64,000 nt of DNA from Palleronia marisminoris (GTDB taxonomy: Bacteria > Pseudomonadota > Alphaproteobacteria > Rhodobacterales > Rhodobacteraceae), in the NCBI RefSeq assembly GCF_900172315.1, contig NZ_FWFV01000010.1, positions 1 to 64,000 on the forward strand, given 5' to 3'. Shown here in pieces: positions 23,421 to 58,150 of this stretch. The notes under the pieces are model-generated. The model did not search any database, was not told where the DNA came from, and was given only the letters and a program-made list of their open reading frames with translations. Within the stretch, counting starts at the first letter, position 1. Each line of letters starts with the position of its first letter. A program made the translations under genes and the position numbers.

Positions 23421-24382
23421 TCAGGCATTTCGCGGTTCCTGCGGTGCGGGAAGGATCTTCGCCAGTTTCCGGAGGTTCTGGGCGGTGGCGGCGAGCAGGA
23501 ATTCGTCGTTCGCGCCGCATGGTCCCCGTAGTCGGAGCCTCCCAAGGCCGAGGATACGCTTGAGGTGCGCGAAGAGCATCTCGACCTTCTTCCGCTGCTT
23601 CATCGAGACCGCGTCTTGCTCTGTTCTGGCGATGTCGCGGGCGACCTGGCGGGCGTCTTCGTGTTCCTCGCGGGTGACGGATCGGGCATCGGCGTTCGGG
23701 CAGCAGTGCTGTTTCGACGGGCAGGCCTGGCAGGTCAGTTTCAGGGCGCGGTATTTGGCCCGACCCTCACTGGTCGGTCCCCGGTTCGGGTCGGAATAGT
23801 TCCGGCGGAACTGCTTCAGTGCCTGGCCCTCGGGGCAAACGTATTGGTCGTTCTCGGCGTCCCACTCGAAGTCCGCCCGGCTCCAGGTGCCATCGCTGCG
23901 GCCAGACTTGTCGAAGACCGGGATGTGCGGTGCGATCTTGCGCTCGACCAGCCAGCCCAGCATCGGGCCGGTGCCGTAGGCCGTATCCGCGATCAAGCGC
24001 TCGGGATGCAGGCCGAACCTGGCTTTCACCCGATCCAGCATGGCCTTGGTTGAACCGACCTCGGCCTGCCGGATCGACCGTGTCGCCTCGACATCGACGA
24101 TGACGCCGTGGTCCGTGTCGATCAGGTAGTTGTCGGAATAGCTGAAGAACGCAGGCCCTTTACGAGCCGCGGTCCACTGGCTGGCTGGGTCGGAATGCGA
24201 GGTGAACTTGGGCTGGACCTCGCTGGCGGCGCCGAACGCGGCCTCGTCCAGTGTGTCCAGATACTCGCGGACTGCGCGGGGCGCATCGGCTGAAGCGATC
24301 TGCGAGACGTCCCAGTCCACCTTCGGCGTCGAGTTCTGCTTGTTCGCGTCCGCCTCGATCAGGCTGGCATCAATCGCCATGC
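23421..24382 (-). pseudogene. IS1182-family (IS5-like) transposase, N-terminal part missing
   Basis: The C-terminal 320 codons of an IS1182-type transposase are present. Landmarks are AIDASLIEADANKQ (catalytic Asp region), YLIDTDHGVIVDVEATRS, ERLIADTAYGTGPMLGWLV (second Asp), the Cys-rich linker LTCQACPSKQHCCPNADARS and the glutamate region KKVEMLFAHLKRILGLGRLRLRG. The first 100-150 residues are absent: at 24383 the frame meets the left end of an IS3-type element, and no matching N-terminal sequence is seen beyond that element's other end (25730). The remnant is not functional. Confidence 0.85.
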
Positions 24383-24440
24383 TGGCCTGCCCCCTGAAAA
24401 GTGGTCCTCCCTGAAGTATGGCTTTCGAGCCAGTTGGAGG

Positions 24441-24725
24441 ATGCAAGAATACCCCAGAAGAGACACAAGCCGGGAGATTGTCGCGAAGCTTCGGCAGGTC
24501 GACGTGCTGGTATCGCATGGCAGGTCGGTGGCCGAGGCGGTGCGGTCGATTGGCGTGACCCAGTTCACCTACTACCGGTGGCGCAAGGAGTATGGCGGTC
24601 TGAAGACCGACCAGGTGAAGCGGCTGAAGGAGCTCGAGAAAGAGAACGAGCGGCTGCGGAAGGCCGTTTCCGACCTGACGCTTGAGAAGCTGATCCTGCG
24701 GGAGGCCGCCTCGGGAAACTTCTGA
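24441..24725 (+). CDS. IS3-family transposase OrfA
   Basis: This 94-residue protein has a helix-turn-helix (SREIVAKLRQVDVLVSHGRSVAEAVRSIGVTQFTYYRWRKEYGGL, about residues 10-53) and a leucine-zipper-like C-terminal helix (VKRLKELEKENERLRKAVSDLTLEKLILREA). It appears intact. In intact relatives a -1 frameshift near its end fuses it to OrfB; here orfB opens at 24722, overlapping the orfA stop. Confidence 0.9.
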   Translation: MQEYPRRDTSREIVAKLRQVDVLVSHGRSVAEAVRSIGVTQFTYYRWRKEYGGLKTDQVKRLKELEKENERLRKAVSDLTLEKLILREAASGNF

Positions 24726-25087
24726 GCCCCGCCCGCCGCCGTCGGTGCGTCGATCACATCAGGCAGAAGTTCGGCGTCACGGAACGGTTCGCCTGCCGTG
24801 TGCTCGGCCAGCATCGATCGACCCAGCGGAAGGTGCCGCAGGGACGAGCCGACGAGGACGCGCTGACCGCGGATATCGTCGCGCTCGCCAGTCAATACGG
24901 GCGCTACGGCTATCGTCGCATCACAGCGCTTCTTCGTGAGGCTGGCTGGGTCGTGAACGCCAAGCGGGTCGAGCGGATATGGCGGCGGGAGGGGCTGAAG
25001 GTTCCCCAGAAGCAACCAAAGAAGGGTCGCCTCTGGCGGGGTGACGGGTCCTGCATCCGTCTGCGGCCGGAGCGACCGAACCACGTC

Positions 25088-25130
25088 CCCCTCTCGGTGA
25101 TTGCGAGCAATCACCTGCCGGTCAGCGGGA
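25088..25130 (+). repeat. Palindromic mini-insertion 1 in IS3 orfB
   Basis: Bases inserted between codons for RPNHV and SYDFV. The sequence opens CCCCTCTCGG, contains a perfect 9-base stem (GGTGATTGC and GCAATCACC, 25096-25104 and 25107-25115) with a 2-base loop, and continues CTGCCGGTCAGCGG. Net gain against the conserved protein frame is 40 bases. It closely resembles mini-insertion 2. Confidence 0.75.
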
Positions 25131-25444
25131 TCCTACGACTTCGTCGAAAGCCGGACGCACGATGGAAGGAAGTTCCGCATGCTCAACGTAATCGACGAGT
25201 TCAGCCGGGAATGCCTGGCCATCAGGATCGACCGGAAGCTGAACTCGACCGCGGTGATCGATGTCCTGACCGAACTGTTCATCTTGCGAGGTGTGCCCGG
25301 TCATGTTCGCTCGGATAACGGTCCGGAGTTCATCGCCAAAGCTGTTCGGGACTGGATCGATGCCGTGGGAGCAAAGACAGCATTCATCGAGCCCGGCAGT
25401 CCCTGGGAGAACGGCTACTGCGAAAGCTTCAACTCGAAGCTCCG

Positions 25445-25486
25445 CCCCTCTCGGCAGATTGCTTCGCAATCGCCTGCCGGGCAGCG
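25445..25486 (+). repeat. Palindromic mini-insertion 2 in IS3 orfB
   Basis: Bases inserted between codons for SKLR and DELL. The sequence opens CCCCTCTCGG, has a stem GATTGC-TTC-GCAATC in the middle and continues GCCTGCCGGGCAGCG. Net gain is 41 bases. Start, stem position and end match mini-insertion 1, in the same orientation, so both copies belong to one small element family. Confidence 0.75.
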
Positions 25487-25729
25487 GACGAGCTGCTGAA
25501 TGGCGAGATCTTCTACAGCCTTGCCGAAGCCAAGATCGTTATCGAAAGCTGACGCAGGCATTACAACATGAAGCGACCGCACTCATCCTTGGGCTACCGG
25601 CCCCCGGCGCCCGAGGTGGTGCAGTGGCCGGCTCCGCAATCCGGAGCCGCTTCGCCGGCCACTCCGGCCGTAGCGCCAAGTTCCGTCATGCACTAAGACT
25701 AAACCCGGACCACCCGATTGGGCAGGCCA

Positions 25730-54654: not shown

Positions 54655-58150
<3,496 letters not shown>

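Follow-up and report, generated by a model that had tools for sequence, protein, structure and literature searches.

The two short hairpin sequences that interrupt an IS3 transposase gene in the DNA analysed here belong to a widespread and apparently undescribed family of hairpins of about 41 bases, whose favoured address is the transposase gene of another mobile element and whose insertion usually breaks that gene. We think it probable, with modest confidence, that they are non-autonomous mobile elements of 34-45 bp which would be recognised in folded form and inserted in trans, and that their bias toward transposase genes would come mainly from the dispensable, mobile character of the host DNA. 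The bias, a C^GAYG target (the caret marks the insertion point), a second helix, a bulged A and a 3' tail linked to the target base all go beyond the initial annotation, which had described the two copies in this locus.

Two hairpin insertions in an IS3 transposase gene

The window (the whole stretch of 64,000 nt of Palleronia marisminoris DNA) carries an IS3 element with an orfB that is interrupted twice (Table 1). Two similar hairpin copies in the same orientation had been reported there, and both are present: the pattern CCTCTCGG-N5..25-CTGCCGG had two matches in the window compared to 0.05 expected from shuffles. We built a covariance model from relatives, window copy 2 included; it gave 68.8 bits to copy 2 and 34.9 bits to copy 1. 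By this model, the intervals given in the initial annotation (25088-25130 and 25445-25486) do hold the copies, but both started one base early and the first ended three bases late.

Table 1. Positions of the two mini-elements and of the mobile DNA around them in the window.
Feature	Positions	Strand	Remarks
Mini-element copy 1	25089..25127	+	39 nt; 20-nt hairpin without bulge; final six bases TCAGCG
Mini-element copy 2	25446..25486	+	41 nt; bulged-A hairpin; final six bases GCAGCG
IS3 orfA (HTH_Tnp_1)	24441..24725	+	Open frame
orfB piece 5' of copy 1 (HTH_21 domain)	24800..25088	+	Start is the start codon of the listed ORF
orfB piece separating both copies (rve integrase core)	25128..25445	+	
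orfB remainder 3' of copy 2	25487..25696	+	Holds an unrelated in-frame TGA, 25550-25552
IS3 element, approximate extent	24388..25726	+	Imperfect terminal repeats, by eye
ORF with DDE_Tnp_1_6 domain, apparent insertion site of the IS3 element	23421..24518	-	Nesting inferred by eye

The net gains claimed for the two sites, 40 (site 1) and 41 (site 2) bases, agreed with an uninterrupted IS3 relative, L186, which was compared directly at site 2 and, at site 1, through a sister copy (L006) that has the same flanks. That the inserted bases are an ancestral part of the IS3 orfB, or a product of chance, has next to no probability. Nothing speaks for it beyond the finding of two copies within one gene. 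The ancestral origin was rejected by the uninterrupted relatives and by the recurrence of the same element in unrelated IS types, while chance was rejected by the low number of matches expected per window and by the complementarity of the stems (see below).

The in-frame TGA of the orfB remainder, read by eye, replaces a Trp codon and is unrelated to the mini-elements; the window IS3 copy is therefore damaged beyond its two insertions. Positions 23421-25726 of the window can be described as nested mobile DNA, a transposase ORF holding an IS3 element that holds two mini-elements. Since the IS3 element apparently lies inside the ORF with the DDE_Tnp_1_6 domain, there would be three levels of insertion, one within the other. 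At 54960-54983 of the window, we also observed a 24-nt near-match (15.2 bits, E 0.42) with an almost absent hairpin, which may be either chance or a collapsed copy.

Fold, target and distribution of the family

On the window strand, the element consists of CCC, TCTC, a hairpin that opens with GG and closes with CC, then TGCC, GGG and a 5-nt tail CARYG. The length of the insert varies from 34 to 45 nt with a mode of 41. Copies of the modal class have a bulged base directly after the third stem pair, an A in 98 of 105 copies. The ends of the element are fixed; the letters of the stem vary widely, even inside one genome, but stay complementary. In the genome that contains the window (G000), window copy 2 and L003 lie in different IS3-type elements and have the same stem.

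For the set of 203 places found by sequence only, complementarity extended over 80% or more of the free arm positions in 166, compared to 7.6 expected after shuffling. An alignment of 67 distinct copies showed changes on both sides in 9 of 13 pairs (125 cells), a level reached in 0 of 500 shuffles. The rows of this alignment were preselected by predicted fold, which makes the covariation test partly circular, and therefore the sequence-only set is the fairer test. The fold is conserved, with compensatory changes. The outer CCC/GGG helix shows little variation: 27 copies differ from it, six of them via a compensated double change, and two of its position pairs covary (H0/T6, z 5.8; H2/T4, z 6.3).

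Minimum-energy folding produced both helices in 121 of 154 distinct cores when the complementary strand was folded, while the written strand gave both in 63 of 154. The complementary strand was likewise favoured by wobble pairs (18 vs 8). RNAalifold, run on the strand as written, kept the inner stem and preferred another small helix over CCC/GGG. We take this as moderate evidence that the complement of the written strand may be the folded form. With respect to the coding sense of the host genes, the CCCTCTC strand was sense at 64 sites and antisense at 42 (p 0.04).

An uninterrupted homologue was available among the fetched loci for 87 of the 203 copies (at most five gap columns; 46 of them gap-free by our count; identities of 74-98%). 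Such presence or absence of the insert at homologous sites is as expected for a non-autonomous mobile element. No target duplication was seen at the insertion sites, including the 46 with gap-free homologues, and the base adjoining the insert sometimes differed from that of the uninterrupted homologue. Among 138 distinct sites (merged at 70% flank identity), the base before the insertion was C in 104, while the bases after it were G in 101, A in 96, T or C in 112 and G in 82, hence the target C^GAYG.

Occupied and empty IS copies coexist at 96% identity (L204 and L223) in G477, the genome with the heaviest load seen. We also observed that one homologous site carried different stems in different genomes (L017, L146 and L155), as did another (L032 and L083). 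L017 and L085 have identical 41-base elements at one site in spite of a dS of 0.55 in the surrounding genes; therefore, these insertions look younger than the divergence. Dispersed copies, empty homologues and a conserved fold all suggest movement, in line with the initial view of a very small mobile palindromic repeat.

Tail and target are correlated. Positions 7 and 11 of the tail covary (z 16.8), and both are linked to the base left of the insertion (L-1/T7, z 11.1; L-1/T11, z 10.9). When the left base is C, T or A, the tail is usually CARYG; with G at the left, it is often TAACA, TAATA or TGACA.

The element recurs in its own genome and in related genomes. In G000 (3.75 Mb), the strict pattern was found at six places, compared to none for a reversed control, and the right-half pattern at seven, while the covariance model reported 10 matches, the weakest two with E 0.004 and 0.012. 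A family-level sample had pattern matches in 133 of 394 genomes, and the reversed-pattern control matched in 16 rows by our count. From these matches, 30 loci were fetched, one per genome; 23 had the hairpin and 7 look like chance, so that some of the 133 genome matches are chance as well. With a stricter pattern, 63 of 196 genomes of an order-level sample matched, and the rows with control matches numbered zero. The scan of genomes of named species matched at least 119 stretches, 80 of them with names. Among the matches listed, the hairpin-bearing named stretches were mostly from Rhodobacterales, and a few came from other or unplaced Alphaproteobacteria or Proteobacteria (L067, L074, L098, L103 and L116).

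The numbers of sites given here depend on some filtering. Before the site analysis, 23 loci of the named-species scan were dropped by hand, 18 of them from outside Alphaproteobacteria and the others (L071, L072, L108, L121 and L180) as look-alikes or unclear. Matches that failed a hairpin filter were also dropped. Matches within 30 bases of a locus end were excluded from the site analysis, and those within 60 bases of it were excluded from the analysis of uninterrupted homologues. In the site analysis, 165 of 174 matches were left.

The strict pattern gave 40 copies in the genome G477, where 101 right ends matched with at most one mismatch. G304, of the same genus as G477, had no copies; in a second close pair, G425 had 33 copies and G266 had none. 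An unusually dense cluster in the sample of this genome (L264:876-1595) has five model matches in 720 bp, in both orientations. Annotated plasmids had 171 places in 75 records, mostly without a listed gene; pDSHI04 of Dinoroseobacter shibae, for example, had six. There were zero matches in a phage collection, seven viral contigs matched, and carriage by phages as the usual vehicle was rejected. We rejected an assembly artefact because the element recurs across many separate assemblies. An Rfam scan of positions 24900-25700 of the window gave nothing at or near the gathering score, so a known Rfam family was rejected too. A literature search, with most subscription journals outside its coverage, found no published description of the hairpin family among the papers listed, and the available sections of PMC12306157 do not describe it either.

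Transposase genes as hosts

In a Pfam scan of one flank for each of the 138 sites, the families listed (25 of 35, with overlaps) included rve (30), rve_3 (19), DDE_Tnp_1 (14), HTH_21 (13), rve_2 (8), DDE_Tnp_1_5 (7), Transposase_mut (6), DUF4096 (6), IS66 (5), HTH_Tnp_1 (5), IstB (4), IS240 (4) and IS110 (2), while ordinary enzyme families among those listed had single members only. Transposase labels were then assigned from Pfam-labelled seeds by BLAST spreading over six rounds, the names of IS types being derived from the Pfam families. By these labels, transposase sequence was located within 120 nt of 108 of the 138 sites and on both sides in 65. Three more sites (L004, L038 and L045:36969) were confirmed directly. 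Therefore, at least 111 of the 138 distinct sites lie within or next to transposase genes, which represent about ten IS types.

For G477, we used a transposase panel that excludes the sequence of this genome. A panel transposase was found within 120 nt of 29 of 41 distinct copies, compared to 16 of 600 random CGAYG control sites taken from a 400-kb sample of the genome (odds ratio 88, p 2.5e-29). A scan of this unselected sample with the covariance model, by which decayed copies are detected as well, reported 22 matches; 11 of the 21 examined were transposase-flanked. In G000, 9 of 10 model matches were inside transposase genes, with a panel that includes the segments of those copies themselves.

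Besides transposases, the addresses included a tyrosine recombinase gene and a hypothetical gene, and the neighbours included RelE, integrase, TfoX_C and GLF segments. Three copies (L070:2215-2257, L118:3826-3868 and L161:3002-3041) adjoin paired tRNA-Ile and tRNA-Ala genes with the CCCTCTC strand in the tRNA sense; these sites are presumably rRNA operon spacers.

The initial annotation had compared the element to the Rickettsia palindromic elements (RPEs) while calling it frame-breaking, and the lengths agree with this: among 166 well-paired copies, the insert length modulo 3 was 2 in 106, 1 in 47 and 0 in only 13, so that most insertions interrupt the reading frame. Selection on the host genes gave a mixed pattern. 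Three same-genome pairs with matching elements had dN/dS of 0.59 (14 changes), 0.94 (23) and 1.75 (6), which fit a dead transposase. The fourth such pair, L078/L088 in Salipiger aestuarii, has a common site and stem and a dN/dS of 0.18 with 58 changes; a dead transposase would be at odds with this value unless insertion came after the divergence. Among nine same-site pairs from different loci, seven had dN/dS from 0.09 to 0.45, and two had 0.66 and 1.09 (8 and 12 changes, respectively).

IS copies loaded with elements have been displaced. L190 and L248 have 1021 bp in common at 98.4% identity, with three elements each and with different flanks outside; this IS copy moved as a unit together with its elements. 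On a simple reading, the transposase for loaded IS copies would be supplied by intact relatives. The elements also seem to recombine with one another. L013:1481-1521 (contig C22 of G000) is a single hybrid element that, for the IS type of the window, is flanked on the left as at site 1 and on the right as at site 2; the catalytic core was apparently lost by deletion between two elements.

Origin of the bias, mobilisation and known relatives

If the explanation we favour is right, the folded single strand, more likely the complement of the written one, would be the form recognised. Its outer helix has 3 bp, followed by a 4x4 internal loop and by an inner stem that is free in sequence and usually has one bulged base. 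An enzyme acting in trans would insert the element at C^GAYG without target duplication, and the insertion would usually shift the frame and break the host gene. Copies would build up in transposase genes mainly because those genes are dispensable and mobile, and IS copies, probably moved by intact relatives, would transport their elements to new places. Bacterial group II introns are commonly said to survive in dispensable, mobile DNA, and the bias toward transposase genes may have the same cause.

Survival alone, though, does not easily explain why so few intergenic copies were seen, since these would need about 10 times poorer survival, an estimate made from 29 vs 12 copies, the 2.7% transposase context at control sites and an assumed intergenic fraction of about 12%. 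A real component of targeting is therefore possible, and the correlation of tail and target base is hinting at a targeting rule outside our preferred explanation. Insertion could be directed to transposase genes or actively favoured there, the element being a natural transposon silencer or a transposon-specialised parasite. This is unlikely in our view, even though it would account for the enrichment in G477, for the at least 111 of 138 sites spread over about ten IS types, for the homologous sites with different stems in different genomes (L017 and L146; L032 and L083) and for the tail linked to the target base. The sequence C^GAYG has too few bases to distinguish transposase genes from others, copies are also found in or beside the other genes named above, tRNA-Ile and tRNA-Ala included, and only about half of the copies in the unselected G477 sample were transposase-flanked. 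Similarly doubtful is the full version of this idea, where a 41-base element would home to the transposase genes of many unrelated IS families by means of an undescribed enzyme, with a 5-nt tail matched to the target, and would silence transposons. The difference matters: a bias in insertion itself would mean that bacteria possess a natural means of disabling transposons, and with survival as the sole cause, the family would record cleanly how the smallest mobile elements are shaped by hitchhiking and by dispensable DNA.

For the enzyme itself, we searched for Y1, Y2 and reverse transcriptase candidates, and none could be named as the mobiliser. Reverse transcriptase (RVT_1) was found in 6 of 18 carrier genomes compared to 10 of 16 others and was not found in G477; as a resident mobiliser, it was rejected. 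The rolling-circle (IS91-type) Y2_Tnp was present in 9 of 14 carriers (G477, G425, G491, G067, G250, G340, G342, G002 and G007) compared to 0 of 12 non-carriers. The integron attC site has an R-box GTTRRRY, and the outer helix, internal loop, inner stem with an extrahelical base and variable tip of our element resemble a folded attC. Movement by a Y2 transposase, or by a recombinase using the folded strand as it does for attC, would be compatible with the preferred explanation; we give it a low probability. G000 and four other carriers lack Y2_Tnp. A search for the two end motifs of the element covered 11 loci, of which 10 had Y2 hits; apart from ordinary copies (in L287 and L183), no element-like end was seen, and thus no end common to IS91 elements in these loci. 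The R-box was not seen at the ends of 68 aligned copies.

Somewhat less probable still is a REP-type element moved by a Y1 (RAYT/IS200-type) transposase, which could also serve as the enzyme of the preferred explanation. REPs are small hairpins thought to be moved in trans by RAYT. The size, the hairpin with a bulge and the lack of target duplication are similar, and the Y1 family (PF01797) was found in 3 of 16 carriers and in 4 of 7 further carriers (10 matches in G425 and 4 in G491), compared to 0 of 16 non-carriers. But PF01797 had no matches in G000 or G477, 16 of the 23 carriers tested were without it, and a Y1 transposase needed everywhere as a resident mobiliser was rejected. The Y1 and Y2 trends may both be explained by the carriers being rich in IS elements. 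Unlike REPs with RAYT, the consensus of the 68 aligned copies has no GTAG adjoining the hairpin, and the location is not extragenic. The complementary strand of the element inserts 3' of CRTC, which recalls the CGTC tag of some alphaproteobacterial REPs in the part of PMC3733652 drawn on here; however, CRTC is the target sequence, and the copies are mostly intragenic.

These CGTC-tagged REPs are the nearest published class. As described in the same part of PMC3733652, they are short palindromes, mostly of Alphaproteobacteria, with single-hairpin units, diverse stems and no dedicated transposase known. Our element is like them in all these respects. They are mostly intergenic and often dimers, with only few fortuitous associations with transposase genes reported, while the mini-element copies are mostly inside such genes. 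In addition, their CGTC tag adjoins an 8-9 bp stem with complementary A/T first positions, and their tails mostly fit CCA. The mini-element has a stem closed by GG/CC, a TGCCGGG tail and two fixed blocks of 7 and 12 nt, and CRTC belongs to the target, being present in the uninterrupted homologues. The covarying stem, the bulged A and the link of tail and target give direct handles on the enzyme, a question that also concerns REP-like repeats without a transposase.

Like MITEs, the mini-elements are non-autonomous and dispersed, but they lack the target duplication, and ends of the MITE type that match an autonomous IS were not found in what was searched. All 27 exact right ends read by eye in G477 had a recognisable left half, a few of them degenerate, and none belonged to a long autonomous version. 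Translational bypass elements are mobile hairpins of about 40 nt without a known mobilising enzyme. Yeast mitochondrial GC clusters such as GC42 are likewise mobile hairpins of about 40 nt for which the available sections of PMC4478555 name no mobilising enzyme. According to the same sections, GC42 has AG direct repeats at its ends that were read as a target duplication; our elements differ in having none, as well as in bacterial hosts and transposase context.

The insert could also be decoded, by ribosomal bypass or as an in-frame peptide like those of RPEs, with the transposase still functional. RPEs are kept in frame in ordinary genes; section 15 of PMC3733652 is a partial source for this. 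Our elements are similar to them as palindromic inserts inside protein genes with few stops: the consensus is open in all six reading frames, and copies with stops numbered 22, 3, 24, 15, 20 and 10 in the six frames, compared to 46-64 in shuffles (n=203, copies not independent). The low dN/dS of seven of the nine same-site pairs and of L078/L088 would also agree with a functional product. Nevertheless, we consider decoding very unlikely. Unlike RPEs, the mini-elements mostly shift the frame and lie in mobile genes, and in sites read by eye the last codon before the insert did not match its last triplet. Low dN/dS also fits insertion after divergence, as in L017/L085, and the other three same-genome pairs had values from 0.59 to 1.75. 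One weak model match, L308:1502-1541 (positions 189154-189193 of contig C9 of G000; 33.5 bits, E 0.004), is in frame within an intact 382-codon frame that reads by eye like epoxyqueuosine reductase (QueG); if real, it would be an RPE-like in-frame copy in a housekeeping gene.
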